A DNA stretch of 64,000 nt from Metabacillus flavus (GTDB lineage Bacteria; Bacillota; Bacilli; Bacillales; Bacillaceae): positions 2,666,001 to 2,730,000 of the forward strand of contig NZ_JAGVRK010000001.1 of NCBI RefSeq assembly GCF_018283675.1, in the 5' to 3' direction. Within the stretch, counting starts at the first letter, position 1. The number at the start of each line of letters is the position of its first letter. This document shows positions 20,900 through 44,825 of this stretch, piece after piece. Made by a program: the position numbers and the translations under genes. Under the pieces are notes generated by a model, which had not been told where the DNA came from, did not search any database, and saw nothing but the letters and a program-made list of their open reading frames with translations.

Positions 20900-20929
20900 A
20901 GCATGTGCCAAAAAGGAGAGATGCTTAGT

Positions 20930-21304
20930 ATGGAGACAAAAAAATGGGGAAAAGCCATTCTTAGCGGACTTATTGCGATTTTTGCTGCAGCTCTGGCCAT
21001 CAGCCTTATCTTTTCACTGCTCCTTAAATTCACCGGAATGACGGAAAGCTCGATTCAATGGATCCTCCTCGCCCTCTCCTTCATCACCCTATTTATAGGG
21101 GGATTTATCGCAGGAGGCAAAGGAAAAGAACGCGGCTGGATCCTCGGCGGAATCACTGCACTTTGTTTTACACTCATTATTGTGCTCTTCCAATTCCTTG
21201 GATTCGGATCATCGCTAAAGCCAATGCAATTTTTATATCACGCAGGATTTTTAGCCATGGCTATGCTGGGCGGAATGATCGGAGTCAATATGTCATCGGA
21301 TTAA
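20930..21304 (+). CDS. yrzE: Four-helix membrane protein YrzE (TIGR04086 family)
   Basis: A 124-residue integral membrane protein with four hydrophobic segments, matching the TIGR04086 family found beside yajC in bacilli and represented by B. subtilis YrzE. The start is ATG 20930, about ten bases after AAAAGGAGAG; an ATG nine bases earlier touches the ribosome binding site and is less likely. Glycines recur in the second and third helices (GGFIAGGKGKERGWILGG). Its function is unknown. It ends at a strong terminator that isolates it from the tandem array downstream. Confidence 0.75.
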   Translation: METKKWGKAILSGLIAIFAAALAISLIFSLLLKFTGMTESSIQWILLALSFITLFIGGFIAGGKGKERGWILGGITALCFTLIIVLFQFLGFGSSLKPMQFLYHAGFLAMAMLGGMIGVNMSSD

Positions 21305-21317
21305 TGGAAGTGGGAGA

Positions 21318-21339
21318 CCCGGCGGCTGCCGGGTTTTTT
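21318..21339 (+). terminator. Terminator after yrzE
   Basis: CCCGGC / GCCGGG with a four-base loop is followed by six T residues. It separates yrzE transcription from the 41-bp repeat array that starts 29 bp further on. Confidence 0.9.
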
Positions 21340-21367
21340 GGTGTTTTTACTATAGGGGGCCGAATCG

Positions 21368-22350
21368 TTGCCTGGCATTCTTGCCTGGCAATCCGCTTTC
21401 TCGGTCCTTTGCCTGGCATTCTTGCCTGGCAATCCGCTTTCTCGGTCCTTTGCCTGGCATTCTTGCCTGGCATTACGCTTTTCGGGGACTTTGCCTGGCA
21501 TTCTTGCCTAGCATTACGCTTTTCGGGGACTTTGCCTGGCATTCTTGCCTGGCATTACGCTTCCCAGATACATTGCCTGGCATTCTTGCCTGGCATTACG
21601 CTCCCCAGATACATTGCCTGGCATTCTTGCCTGGCATTACGCTCCCCAGATACATTGCCTGGCATTCTTGCCTGGCATTACGCTCCCCAGATACATTGCC
21701 TGGCATTCTTGCCTGGCATTACGCTCCCCAGATACATTGCCTGGCATTCTTGCCTGGCATTACGCTCACCAGATACATTGCCTGGCATTCTTGCCTGGCA
21801 TTACGCTCCCCAGATACTTTGCCTGGCATTCTTGCCTGGCATTACGCTTCCCAGATACTTTGCCTGGCATTCTTGCCTGGCATTACGCTCCCCAGATACT
21901 TTGCCTGGCATTCTTGCCTGGCATTACGCTCCCCAGATACTTTGCCTGGCATTCTTGCCTGGCATTACGCTCACCAGATACATTGCCTGGCATTCTTGCC
22001 TGGCATTACGCTTCCCAGATACTTTGCCTGGCATTCTTGCCTGGCATTACGCTCCCCAGAACATTGCCTGGCATTCTTGCCTGGCATTACGCTTCCCAGA
22101 TACTTTGCCTGGCATTCTTGCCTGGCATTACGCTCACCAGATACATTGCCTGGCATTCTTGCCTGGCATTACGCTCCCCAGATACATTGCCTGGCATTCT
22201 TGCCTGGCATTACGCTTCCCAGATACATTGCCTGGCATTCTTCCCTGGCATTCCCCTTTTCCGGTCCATTACCAGACATTCTTGGCATTACTCTTCCCGA
22301 TTAATTGCCTGGCATTCTTCCCTGGCATCATGCATTCTACAGGAAGATGC
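21368..22350. repeat. 41-bp tandem repeat array, about 22 good copies
   Basis: Units start at 21368 and recur every 41 bp (21409, 21450, 21491 and so on) to 22228, with one 40-bp unit at 22024. Two or three decayed copies reach about 22350. Each unit opens with TTGCCTGGCATTC and then TTGCCTGGCATT, giving two 9-bp hyphenated palindromes TGCCTGGCA 14 bp apart, followed by a tail that changes in blocks: AATCCGC-type in units 1-2, ACGCTTTTCGG-type in 3-4, and ACGCTNCCCAGATAC-type in 5-21. Because 41 is not a multiple of 3, all three plus frames stay open, producing long but meaningless reading frames. The array lies between the yrzE and yajC terminators, so neither gene should transcribe it. Its function is unknown. 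Confidence 0.95.
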
Positions 22351-22450
22351 TTGGCATTCTGCGATCCGTTATCCCCTCCCGTTCCATTCCGAGCATCACA
22401 CATTTCAAATGGGGAGCAATGACATCGCTGCATCCATACTGAACTCAAAA

Positions 22451-22485
22451 CAAAAAAAACAGAGAAAGCATTAAGCTTCCTCTGT
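22451..22485 (-). terminator. Terminator after yajC
   Basis: On the minus strand ACAGAGGAAGC and GCTTTCTCTGT form a stem with a five-base loop, followed by eight T residues. The yajC stop codon sits in the loop. Confidence 0.88.
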
Positions 22486-22761
22486 CTTTGCCAGTACGGA
22501 TTTTTCTTTTACTTCGCGGATTGCTCTGCGTTCAAATGTTAAACGGGAGCCGTCACCAGCTTTTAGTACTGCTTTTTCTTCATCAATTGATTCGATCGTG
22601 GCGTGAAGTCCTCCGATTGTCACAACTTTGTCACCTTTTTGCAAACTGCTTTGCATTTGGCGGAATGTTTTTTGCTGTTTTTGCTGCGGACGGATCAGCA
22701 GGAAGTAGAAAATCGCGAACATTAGCACTAATGATAAGATAGTCGTCATGGAATTACCCAT
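22471..22761 (-). CDS. yajC: Preprotein translocase subunit YajC (YrbF)
   Basis: A 96-residue single-pass membrane protein that accompanies SecDF at the Sec translocon. One N-terminal helix (about residues 5-22) is followed by the family signature LIRPQQKQQK and a small beta-rich domain containing GDKVVTIGGLHATI. Length and order (tgt then yajC) match other bacilli, where the gene is called yrbF. The ATG follows AAAGGGGTGAAAG. The stop lies in its own terminator. Confidence 0.92.
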   Translation of the reverse strand: MGNSMTTILSLVLMFAIFYFLLIRPQQKQQKTFRQMQSSLQKGDKVVTIGGLHATIESIDEEKAVLKAGDGSRLTFERRAIREVKEKSVLAKTEEA

Positions 22762-28485: not shown

Positions 28486-30000
28486 TTAATCCTCTTCCCC
28501 ATTGTAAAAATCAGGGCGTCCGAACATTTGGCCGTATCCGGGCTGCATTCCATACCCCTGCTGCATCCCAAATCCAGGCTGCATTCCATAGCCTTGCTGC
28601 ATCCCGTATCCTTGCTGCATTCCGTAACCCTGGGATCCTCCGCATCCGCAATCCTGAGGCATTTGTCCGTATTGCCCGCCGGTCATCGGCTGCTTATTCT
28701 TGCCTTCCTGCGCGCCCATCACATTCGGCTGGTTTTCATCCATTGCACCCATCACGTTGGGCATGTTCGGTGACATCGCACCCATCACGTTGGGCATGTT
28801 GGGAGACATCGCGCCCATCACATTTGGCATATTTTCATCCATAGCACCCATCACGTTCGGCATATTCGGATCGTAAGCACCCATTACACCCGGGCCAAAC
28901 CCTGAACCTGGCATTACAGGAGAGGCCGGAGTGCATCCGGGAGGATATGGCGAATACCCTTGCGGAGCCATTTGCGGCATCATTTGAGGCATGCTTTGAG
29001 CGCCCATTACATTTGGCATGTTGGGAGACATCGCGCCCATCACATTCGGCATGTTTTCATCCATTGCCCCCATCACGTTTGGCATATTCGGAGACATGGC
29101 TCCCATTACATTAGGCATGTTCGGTGACATCGCACCCATCACATTCGGCATGTTTTCGTCCATGGCACCCATCACATTCGGCATGTTTTCATCCATCGCC
29201 CCGCCGACGCCATAAGGCATTGGAGATGGGACACACCAATACGGCATCGGATGATGGTGATGATGGTGGCCATAATGTCCATAGCCGTAAGGAGCTCCAT
29301 ACATCGGGGCCTGCATACCATATCCTGGCTGCGGTCCGCCGTACATCGGCTGCTGCATGGATGGCTGCATCGCTCCCATTACTCCTGTTGGAGCAGAATA
29401 AGGCATATTAGGCATGTTCGGCATTTTCTCCATTTTCTTGGTTGCCTCCTCTTTCTTGGCTGGTGAAACTGCCTTTTGTGCCACTTGTGCAGCTGGCTTC
29501 TCTTTTGGTTTTTCTGCCGGCTTTTTCATTTCAGGCATAACATTGGCCGGTTTTTTCATTTCCGGCATAACATTAGCCGGCTTCGGAGGCAGCTGCGGCT
29601 GTTTCGGCGGCATTGACATGTTCACCATATAATAATTATTAATATCCATTTCAGGGTAAACAGGCTGCGGTATGTTAGGCATTTTAGGCATAAACGGAGT
29701 AATTGGTTTTTCTTTTTTAGGTTCCTCTGCTGCCTGAACTTCTTTTGGCTTTTCCTTGGCAGGCTGCTGAACCGGCTGTTCTTTTATGGGCTTCTGCATT
29801 TCTTTTTTCGAATTGAAATTAATTTGAGCTTCCTTCTTTACTGGAACGCTCCCCGTCGGTACCTTAATTTTCATTCCAGGCATTATGGAATCGGGATTGC
29901 TTAGTTGAGAGTTCATTTTTTTCAGTTCTTCGAAATCCGCTCCATATTTTTTAGCAATGTTCCACAATGTATCCCCTTTTTGAACGATATGGATTTTCAA
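28486..30000 (-). CDS. safA: Spore coat morphogenetic protein SafA, repeat-rich
   Basis: SafA directs inner-coat assembly and binds the cortex through an N-terminal LysM domain, seen here at residues about 2-48 (HIVQKGDTLWNIAKKYG, IMPGMKIKVPTG). A Lys/Pro/Glu-rich linker follows. Residues about 240-440 contain eleven copies of an 11-residue unit of the form M-[D/S/Y]-x-N-M-P-N-V-M-G-A in two blocks. A C-terminal stretch of QGYGMQ repeats and a DCGCGG cysteine cluster complete it. At 504 residues it is clearly longer than B. subtilis SafA (387), through repeat growth. The start is TTG 30000, following GGAGGGGG. It lies between coxA and nadA, as in B. subtilis. Confidence 0.9.
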   Translation of the reverse strand: MKIHIVQKGDTLWNIAKKYGADFEELKKMNSQLSNPDSIMPGMKIKVPTGSVPVKKEAQINFNSKKEMQKPIKEQPVQQPAKEKPKEVQAAEEPKKEKPITPFMPKMPNIPQPVYPEMDINNYYMVNMSMPPKQPQLPPKPANVMPEMKKPANVMPEMKKPAEKPKEKPAAQVAQKAVSPAKKEEATKKMEKMPNMPNMPYSAPTGVMGAMQPSMQQPMYGGPQPGYGMQAPMYGAPYGYGHYGHHHHHHPMPYWCVPSPMPYGVGGAMDENMPNVMGAMDENMPNVMGAMSPNMPNVMGAMSPNMPNVMGAMDENMPNVMGAMSPNMPNVMGAQSMPQMMPQMAPQGYSPYPPGCTPASPVMPGSGFGPGVMGAYDPNMPNVMGAMDENMPNVMGAMSPNMPNVMGAMSPNMPNVMGAMDENQPNVMGAQEGKNKQPMTGGQYGQMPQDCGCGGSQGYGMQQGYGMQQGYGMQPGFGMQQGYGMQPGYGQMFGRPDFYNGEED

Positions 30001-32521: not shown

Positions 32522-34047
32522 ACAATCACCTCTAAAGCTGGTTTATTCGTTTTCCATAGCAGTTCTTTTCGTTTCCAGGCTGCCTCTTTATAGGGAAAGT
32601 CTGACCGGAAATGGCAGCCTCTGCTTTCTGTGCGCTGCCATGCAGCCCGGGCAATTAATTCACCAGCCGTCATCATGTTGGCCATTTCGAAGATGCCGGG
32701 TGAGAGCTCTTCTGCCTGCCCGCTCTTTTGCTGGGCATCCTGAAACCACTCAATTAGCTGTCTTAACCCCTCTTCATTTCGTTCAATCCCTGCGAAACGC
32801 TCCATCATATCAGCTACATCCTGCTTCGTAACGGTGTACGCAGGAGGACGTTCCTTCTTAAATGACGGAACATCCTCCTGTGCTTCAATCGTTTTTACAT
32901 CCTCTGCTATTTTCTTTCCAAACACCAATCCTTCCAGCAGGGAATTGCTTGCAAGCCTGTTTGCTCCATGAACTCCAGTGCAAGCCGCTTCACCAGCTGC
33001 GTAAAGCCTGTTTACACTTGTTCGGCCGTTCAGATCCGTCTTAATTCCGCCCATAAAGAAATGCATGCCAGGCATAACGGGGATCAGCCCATCCTGCAAA
33101 CGGATGCCATTCTTCTCACACATTCTGGAAATTCCGGGAAATCGTTTCTTGAATTGAGGAATACTTTTAATGTTTAGAAAGATGGACTCTCCCTGCTGAA
33201 TACTCCGGAAAATTTCTCTGGAAACAACGTCTCTCGGTGCAAGATCTGCTAACGGATGTACGTTTTCCATGATTTTCTCTCCCCTAGAATTTTGCAGGAA
33301 AGCTCCCTCTCCGCGGACAGCTTCCGAAACCAGTCCTTTTACCGAGCCTGCTGTATAGAGCATGGTAGGATGAAACTGGACGAACTCCATATCTGTCAGT
33401 ATCGCACCTGCTCTATAGGCAAGAGCGATTCCATCCGCTGTACAATTCCTGTGATTGGAAGTATGCCGGTAAAGGGTGCCGCATCCGCCAGCTGCCAGAA
33501 TGACAGCGGAAGCATAAATCACTTCAGTATTTCCATCCGCATTAAGAACGCGCACACCGTAGCAGGTGTTTTCTCTAACAAGCAGTTCTGTTACCATTGT
33601 TTGTTCATACATGCTCACTTTTCCGTTTACACCCTGTGCAAGAAACCGGACCATCGCTTTTCCTGTTTCATCGCCGCCTGCATGGACAATCCGGTTTAGC
33701 CTGTGCGCTCCTTCCATGCCCAGCTTTAGGGCACCGTTCTCCGCTCTGTCAGCAGGCAATCCGTCGCGAAGCAGGTTAAGAAGGATTTTGTTCCCTTCTT
33801 CCGTCAGCTGTTTGGCTGCATGAGGATTTGTATGGCCATCGCCGGCTTGAATCGTATCCTCACAATGCAGCATCCAGGAATCTTTTTCAGAAAGAGCAGC
33901 GGCAATCCCGCCTTGTGCCAAAGACGAGTTCCCATCGGTTACAGATCCTTTTGTAACAATCATTACGTTCAATTCTTCACAAATATAATAAGCAACGGCC
34001 AAAGCTGCTATTCCGCTGCCCACAATCAGCACGTCTGTCTGCTGCAT
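32518..34047 (-). CDS. nadB: L-aspartate oxidase NadB
   Basis: NadB oxidises L-aspartate to iminoaspartate using FAD and is the first enzyme of de novo NAD synthesis. The dinucleotide-binding motif DVLIVGSGIAALAVA lies at the N-terminus, followed by SSLAQGGIAAA and the C-terminal FAD contacts (GLYAAGE-like RLYAAGEAACTGVHGANRLASNSLLEGLVFG). I use ATG 34047, six bases after AGGTGA; a GTG three codons upstream forms part of that site. This gives 509 residues. The promoter region is shared with the divergent nadS gene and contains the NadR-type operator. Confidence 0.94.
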   Translation of the reverse strand: MQQTDVLIVGSGIAALAVAYYICEELNVMIVTKGSVTDGNSSLAQGGIAAALSEKDSWMLHCEDTIQAGDGHTNPHAAKQLTEEGNKILLNLLRDGLPADRAENGALKLGMEGAHRLNRIVHAGGDETGKAMVRFLAQGVNGKVSMYEQTMVTELLVRENTCYGVRVLNADGNTEVIYASAVILAAGGCGTLYRHTSNHRNCTADGIALAYRAGAILTDMEFVQFHPTMLYTAGSVKGLVSEAVRGEGAFLQNSRGEKIMENVHPLADLAPRDVVSREIFRSIQQGESIFLNIKSIPQFKKRFPGISRMCEKNGIRLQDGLIPVMPGMHFFMGGIKTDLNGRTSVNRLYAAGEAACTGVHGANRLASNSLLEGLVFGKKIAEDVKTIEAQEDVPSFKKERPPAYTVTKQDVADMMERFAGIERNEEGLRQLIEWFQDAQQKSGQAEELSPGIFEMANMMTAGELIARAAWQRTESRGCHFRSDFPYKEAAWKRKELLWKTNKPALEVIV

Positions 34048-44236: not shown

Positions 44237-44421
44237 AGAAAAGCGGAAGCGGCTTCTAGTAAGGAGGTTCCGCTAAAAGCGACGCGTCCTGCCGCAACGC
44301 AGAACTGACCTGCATCGTGCAGGCCTCCCTGAGAGACGGTGGAATCGGGGCTGGCAAAGTCGCTTTTTGACTTTGACTGAACCGGTGAAGCGGCCGAAGG
44401 GCTAGCCGCTGGAGCTGGAAC
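44237..44421. repeat. Interspersed palindromic repeat, copy D
   Basis: AAGAAAAGCGGAAGCGGC at the left and GCCGCTGGAGCTGGAAC at the right pair as in the other copies. The middle includes CGACGCGTCCTGCCGCAACGC and GCATCGTGCAGGCC, close to copy B. Within it, AAAGTCGCTTTTTGACTTTG is a further hairpin. It begins 14 bp beyond the -35 of the spoIVFA promoter. Confidence 0.75.
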
Positions 44422-44423
44422 AC

Positions 44424-44794
44424 AGAAAAGCGGAGGGCGCTTGCTCAGCTGTGAAAGACGGTGGAGCTCTCGACCGAGAGGCGCCCAAGTTAGGTTGTTC
44501 AGCTAAATGCGCGATGTCCTGTCGCAACGCTGAAAGGGCCTTCATCGTGAAGGCCCTCGACCGAGAGAGCGAAGCGGCCGAACAGCTAGCGCCCGGAGCT
44601 GGACAACATAGAAAAGCGGAGGGCGCTTGCTCAGCTGTGAAAGACGGTGGAGCTCTCGACCGAGAGGCGCCCAAGTTAGGTTGTTCAGCTAAATGCGCGA
44701 CGTCCTGTCGCAACGCTGTACGGGCCTTCATCGTGAAGGCCCTCGACCGAGAGAGCGAAGCGGCCGAACAGCTAGCGCCCGGAGCTGGACAACT
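44424..44794. repeat. Tandem duplicate (186-bp period) of the interspersed repeat, copies E and F
   Basis: Two nearly identical units begin at 44424 and 44610 with AGAAAAGCGGAGGGCGCTTG and end with GCGCCCGGAGCTGGACAAC. They differ by a few bases only (for example GATGTCC against GACGTCC, and GAAAGGG against GTACGGG). Internal palindromes include GGGCCTTCATCGTGAAGGCCC and GGAGCTCTCGACCGAGAGGCGCC. An in-frame plus-strand reading frame crosses both units but is a by-product of the duplication (186 is a multiple of 3). Confidence 0.88.
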
Positions 44795-44825
44795 CAGTTC
44801 AGGTAGAGAATCACTCTTTTATCAA

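Follow-up and report, generated by a model that had tools for sequence, protein, structure and literature searches.

A 41-bp tandem hairpin array of Metabacillus flavus as a probable substrate of a RAYT-type transposase

Introduction

What accounts for a minisatellite of near-identical 41-bp units lying between two convergent genes of Metabacillus flavus? The array, here called A7, sits in a 64-kb stretch of the chromosome (the window), and the initial annotation left three options for it: a protein-binding DNA array, an array of RNA hairpins or a neutral repeat. Our comparison favours DNA that is the substrate of a specific protein, with a RAYT-type HUH transposase as that protein, and does not support the RNA array. 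We propose, from sequence comparison, that A7 is probably one member of a genome-wide set of hairpin repeats resembling repetitive extragenic palindromic (REP) elements and serving a RAYT-type Y1/HUH transposase as cognate substrate.

The host genome (G000; 4.03 Mb in two contigs) was compared with five congeners, G001 to G005, among them Metabacillus mangrovi (G003) and the draft genome of Bacillus sp. SJS (G005); counts over six congeners include the host. In the host, loci labelled A carry repeats of the GCCTGGC (GCC) class and loci labelled B those of the GTCTGAC (GTC) class, A10 being the array at the transposase locus.

Results

A7 and its relatives in the host genome

Tandem Repeats Finder delimits A7 at 21368-22328 on the + strand, with a period of 41, 23.6 copies and 92% matches, so that the period first proposed holds and the number of units rises from about 22 to 23-24. 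Each unit consists of a 22-nt hairpin, TGCCTGGCA-TTCT-TGCCTGGCA, followed by a 19-nt locus-specific linker. The window contains 44 copies of TGCCTGGCA, 43 of them on the + strand at 21369-22314, compared with a mean of 0.81 and a maximum of 4 in 100 shuffles of the window; the single stray copy on the - strand (33066-33074) is at chance level. The initial annotation's two motifs per unit and more than 40 palindromes are thus correct in number, but not as separate palindromes: the two copies, odd palindromes 13 nt apart, pair with each other into one hairpin, whose stem (4 + 4 pairs) contains a T.T mismatch and whose loop is TTCT. As DNA, the unit folds at -8.6 kcal/mol (z -3.4) and its opposite strand at -8.1 kcal/mol (z -2.3). 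The block-wise change of the unit tails, also noticed initially, is borne out by the linkers, which read ATCCGCTTTCTCGGTCCTT behind units 1-2, TTACGCTTTTCGGGGACTT behind units 3-4 and TTACGCTYMCCAGATACWT-like forms thereafter. Towards one end the motifs are mutated (22229-22356, + strand), and units can be traced to about 22356.

Counting the motif genome-wide and in relatives, as had been suggested, revealed many dispersed arrays in the host and an array at the window site in four of six congeners. The host holds 106 pairs of the form TGCCTGGCA-N(2-6)-TGCCTGGCA (82 forward, 24 reverse) at 11 loci, and a backward-control pattern has no match in the host genome. A wider-gap pattern added A3 and A5, giving at least 13 GCC loci (A1-A13), and the GTC class occupies six further loci (B1-B6). 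Linkers are alike inside one array and unlike between arrays, and the hairpin halves are constant across host loci. Units of the GTC class fold similarly to those of the GCC class (z -4.5 and -3.5). Together with a third class, TCCCGGA (TCC), found in G002, they share a common register of a 7-mer, N6 and the same 7-mer, with a period of 41-42, and the differences among the three classes fall on both sides of the dyad. An assembly collapse, raised earlier as a possible artefact, is unlikely because the host genome consists of two contigs and four of six congeners bear an array at the site. A CRISPR array was rejected, since the linkers repeat inside an array and there are no unique spacers.

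Two host arrays show peculiarities of their own. A4 is split by an IS256-family transposase gene (L025:6835-8019), an insertion that is missing from A4 of the sister genome. In A5 (L026:6562-7048), the centre base of the motif has the other strand's form, whereas the sister copy has the usual one; an array of G002 at 1630 kb resembles A5 in this respect.

Array orientation follows the replichores

dnaA lies at C1:4, and the sign of the GC skew flips between sampling points at 1.92 and 2.0 Mb. Inside each of the 19 host array loci the units point in one direction, and, judged by the loop, the AGAA-type strand is on the lagging-strand template at 18 of them (p 8e-5), a rule that had been noticed ahead of its testing. 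A5 is only an apparent exception by its centre base, as it has the AGAA loop on the + strand and its counterpart in G001 is of the usual form. Of 14 further array loci beyond the host, three were not orientable, and the 11 that were all obey the rule. Gene direction was set aside as the cause, because the seven convergent loci also obey the replichore. Y1 transposases of the IS200/IS605 family act on lagging-strand template DNA, according to the part of the source available (PMC6006769).

A candidate transposase adjoins one array

A gene for a RAYT-type Y1/HUH transposase of 193 aa (C1:3227239-3227817) is located some 0.5 Mb beyond the window and adjoins one of the arrays. Its product matches Pfam Y1_Tnp (3.1e-17) and no other Pfam domain, and it has the TnpA_REP fold. 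H61-I-H63, Y120 and N124 align with H-M-H, Y115 and N119 of 4er8 (E 0.016), and the HUH and Y---NP residues are invariant across a ten-sequence alignment. The motifs NHIH, YIHLNP and WSSY match the subclass 2.1 table in the available part of PMC6006769, where the variants listed for that subclass, NHVH and NH[YF]H, do not include NHIH. Subclass 2.1 is also described there with a C-terminal helix-turn-helix and a median length of 238 aa, compared with Y1_Tnp alone by Pfam and 193 aa in the host. An array precedes the gene in four of five orthologs and a degenerate remnant in the fifth. Within 2.1 kb around the host gene, a pair of flanking terminal inverted repeats was not found, the array being on the 5' side only, and PADLOC gave no defence-system hit for the transposase. 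The gene is under purifying selection (nonsynonymous divergence dN 0.040, synonymous divergence dS 0.455, G000 vs G001), which suggests a benefit to the host. In G003, it carries an in-frame TAG and an altered conserved Asn.

Congeners also have a second RAYT-like gene, about 45-48% identical (L169-L173), and the host has two separate matches. Its flanks hold non-tandem repeated words, of the GGGGACTGGCA type in G000 and G003 and of the GGGTCAGTGCA type in G001, G002 and G005. In a scan of 30 RAYT-like loci, congeners among them, some genes of other Bacillales genera (L047, L055, L057, L060, L061 and L068) likewise had repeated words in their flanks, including the palindromes GGGACAGTCCC (L055, L060) and GGTGCCAGGCACC (L061); these words may be compared with the GGGGWSAS repeats of TIRYTs in the part of PMC3733652 available.

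Arrays and transposase occur together

Pairs of TGCCTGGCA were found in seven of 60 genomes, namely five of the six congeners and two genomes from other families (13 and 1 pairs), and in none of 30 sampled genomes from other genera of the same family. G003 has two pairs and G004 none. The transposase ortholog (74-100% aa identity) is present in the same five congeners, and the best that G004 offers is a relative of 46% identity; weaker relatives are common, with some match in 33 of the 60 genomes. An order-wide draw of 397 genomes, in which the host was the only congener, yielded five with pairs. Apart from the host itself, these were two species from a single other genus (with 13 and 8 pairs, far apart among the matches listed) and two single hits. 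In one of those two species (G052), the flanks of a 43%-identical transposase contain four copies of the motif.

The motif class beside the gene differs between species. The array preceding it is GCCTGGC in G000 and G001, GTCTGAC in G005 and TCCCGGA in G002, with a two-unit remnant in G003; genome-wide, G002 has 59 TCCCGGA-type pairs and none of the other five congeners has any, and GTCTGAC pairs number 55 in G005, 23 in G001, 8 in G000 and 0 in G002, G003 and G004. The gene ahead of this array is thioredoxin-reductase-like, presumably yumC, in G000, G001, G005 and G003; in G002, the right side of the locus matches and 1.5 kb on the left does not. At the window site, exact pairs number 20 in G000, 16 in G001, 8 in G005 and 3 in G002, and G003 and G004 are array-free. 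Twelve host GCC sites were located in G001, 11 of them with an array (A3 is bare, and A11 was not located). Five of eight examined G002 arrays lie at host array sites, A1, A8, A11 and A10 with the TCC class (A10 by its right flank) and the window site with the GCC class; the other three match no host site.

At same-class arrays, the linker ranks its own site first at 9 of 11 loci in G001 and 5 of 6 in G005. Conversion of the motif in place, with linkers kept, was set aside for want of clear support: class-switched linkers miss their own site (rank 7 in G005; ranks 7, 2, 11 and 2 of 13 in G002), although a same-class control in G002 also fails (rank 5).

These patterns bear on the alternatives. 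Hairpins favour slippage, and the arrays could be plain minisatellites made by replication slippage or unequal exchange at palindromes, with the transposase next to one of them by coincidence; locus-specific linkers, homogenised inside arrays, and variable copy number agree with this, but the hairpin halves are alike across host loci when linkers are not, the class beside the gene is also the dispersed one, with the TCCCGGA type confined to G002 among the six, and the near-loss of pairs in G003 and their absence from G004 parallel an ortholog that is broken in the one and missing from the other, so that we regard this explanation as improbable. It is less probable still that the arrays bind a host chromosome protein for nucleoid, partition, recombination or replication-polarity functions, with the transposase using or spreading the sites secondarily. 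Replichore-polar orientation, sites at the same place across species and a period of about four helical turns would suit such a protein; however, the motif varies from congener to congener together with the transposase locus, which makes a conserved host factor unlikely, and pairs are lacking in G004 and in all 30 other-genus genomes of the family and nearly so in G003. That the repeats are transcribed RNA hairpins stabilising or terminating messages is very hard to credit, despite a favourable fold of the + strand unit as RNA (-13.1 kcal/mol, z -2.7), because A7 sits between convergent genes, the setting of 7 of 19 host loci in all by simple open reading frame calls (A12 included), the 10 co-directional loci have 3 arrays in the sense and 7 in the antisense direction, one promoter-like site lies near A7, fewer than in shuffles, and an Rfam search found no family at threshold (one hit at E 0.063, far under its gathering score).

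A block swap at the transposase locus and array sizes elsewhere

Flank identity between G001 and G005 is 96.4-99.7% at 14 of 16 compared G005 array loci, the remaining two being A11, which has no counterpart in the G001 stretches taken, and the transposase locus. At this last locus, 968 bp of the left gene, as far as its stop, show 99.5% identity, and codons 83 to the end of the transposase are 94% identical; between them, the array, the promoter region and the first ~284 bases of the gene are diverged (codons 1-82: 67% nt identity, dS saturated). The array and the N-terminal half of the transposase therefore diverge together as a single block. The REP-contacting residues of E. coli TnpA_REP are located in beta 1, around beta 4, in the alpha 3 helix and at the C-terminus, as given in the part of PMC8266576 available; beta 1 and the helix at 73-92 are inside the swapped part, and the other contact regions are outside it.

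Array sizes at other sites shift in the matching direction. Exact cores of the GTC class number 57 in G001 vs 104 in G005, which is larger at 7 of 7 sites, and those of the GCC class 142 vs 93, with G005 smaller at 4 of 6 sites. Permuting class labels over these 13 shared sites gave one-sided p values of 0.010, 0.016 and 0.011 by three ways of counting, A10 being excluded as the swapped locus and A11 for want of a G001 counterpart; no G005 position was found for A1, A2, A3, A5, A12 and B4. In G000, whose gene is GCC-type, GTC arrays are small and GCC arrays mostly large (A6 is small). Length thus differs among relatives, as a neutral repeat would have it, but the change over the 13 sites tracks the transposase type; for any single array, neutral drift may still account for the difference.

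Surroundings of A7

The placement of A7 between yrzE and yajC is confirmed. On its left lies a TIGR04086/DUF3792 membrane protein gene (20903-21304, +), which we take to be yrzE, and on its right yajC (TIGR00739; 22471-22761, -), the anchor for locating the site in five relatives. The two flanking terminators first described are present as terminator-like stem-loops behind the yrzE-like gene (21311-21340, +) and behind yajC (22455-22489, -), but such sites are no more numerous than chance (3 found vs 2.6 expected). Elsewhere in the window, overlapping tandem repeats at 28536-29583, which may lie in a gene for a repetitive protein, have periods divisible by 3 throughout (18, 30, 33, 36, 66 and 99), and a direct repeat of 186 bp spans 44387-44797 (2.2 copies, 94% matches).

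Discussion

As a plausible mechanism, the transposase would bind each hairpin when single-stranded, on exposed lagging-strand template, with its N-terminal half reading the motif. Matching arrays could grow, shrink and homogenise as the enzyme nicks and rejoins DNA at hairpins, with slippage as a further contributor, and arrays left with no matching enzyme would decay. We tentatively suggest, further, that the transposase locus may carry exchangeable specificity alleles, in which the array and the N-terminal half (codons 1 to ~95) form one cassette moved by homologous recombination; an incoming allele might then grow matching arrays chromosome-wide in trans and let mismatched ones shrink, so that arrays would record past alleles.

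Several observations weigh against this picture. At the swapped locus, the array class changes by physical linkage and so gives no proof of recognition alone. The size test was designed after the counts had been seen and covers 13 sites only; A4 and A13, both GCC arrays, are larger in G005 (A13 is tied when one-mismatch pairs count), and in the G005 draft two arrays fall at contig ends, A6 being a sum over two ends and B5 lying at one. Sizeable GTC arrays are kept in G001 despite its GCC-type enzyme, many GCC arrays are kept in G005, with GTC at its transposase gene, and G002 keeps its three GCCTGGC pairs at the window site. The co-occurrence of arrays and transposase is based on six congeners. 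The TCC unit of G002 folds no better than shuffles (z about 0), and GTAG was found within 8 nt of the hairpins in 0 of 132 cases on one strand and 4 of 132 on the other, A5 having yielded no hairpin to the search pattern. NCBIfam NF047646 (REP_Tyr_transpos), the best family hit of the transposase, scores 68.1 bits, below its cut-off of 80. By centre base alone the orientation rule holds at 17 of 19 loci (p 7e-4), A3 is an exception (local skew 0.004), and strand composition may contribute to the bias.

Answers as to whether RAYTs act on their repeats in trans, and through which protein region they recognise them, come from a few biochemically studied enzymes. G001 and G005 offer a natural part-swap, with near-identical flanks, a different recognition half and repeat class, and array sizes elsewhere shifted in the matching direction, and an enzyme is proposed here to have caused a family of bacterial minisatellites. 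A literature search on the TGCCTGGCA string gave no such repeats by title among the matches listed, and searches on RAYTs in Bacillus, Firmicutes or Bacillaceae and on minisatellites did not find such arrays, although an earlier description in Bertels 2017, Ton-Hoang 2012 or Messing 2012 is possible; Geobacillus genome papers, in the parts available, table COG1943 'RayT' with no repeats. As far as this search shows, long single-orientation Bacillaceae hairpin arrays tied to a subclass 2.1-like enzyme, a species-wise motif class and a block swap with a matching shift elsewhere are new.

Among known systems, the REP/RAYT systems (REPtrons) of E. coli, Pseudomonas and Stenotrophomonas resemble the host system in that the Y1/HUH enzyme agrees in fold and catalytic residues, hairpins are scattered over intergenic DNA, clusters adjoin the gene, and tandem clusters are known. 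In Pseudomonas, tandem REP clusters and clusters beside RAYTs occur, forward and reverse in different parts of the genome (at ~2 Mb and ~4 Mb), the largest arrays having 12 REPs, in the available part of Bertels and Rainey 2011 (PMC3116915). Unlike these, the host hairpins have no GTAG foot, are built from two copies of an odd palindromic 7-mer and form head-to-tail 41-bp arrays of up to ~25 units, in Bacillaceae. TIRYTs, or TnpA_Y1 subclass 2.1 (Bertels group 1), are alike in their NHIH, YIHLNP and WSS motifs, which fit the table of Quentin 2018 (PMC6006769), and families of terminal inverted repeats in dimers or clusters are known from Di Nocera 2013 (PMC3733652). As far as the available parts of these two papers go, the former reports no REP-like sequences near subclass 2.1 genes and the latter reports flanking terminal inverted repeats, whereas the host has a long 5' tandem hairpin array and dispersed arrays; our reading would thus link REP-like hairpins to a subclass 2.1-like enzyme in Bacillaceae. 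BIME-2 elements, finally, are likewise intergenic tandem REP-based arrays, but BIMEs mix REP and inverted REP, as described in the available part of PMC8266576, whereas all 19 host arrays keep a single orientation.
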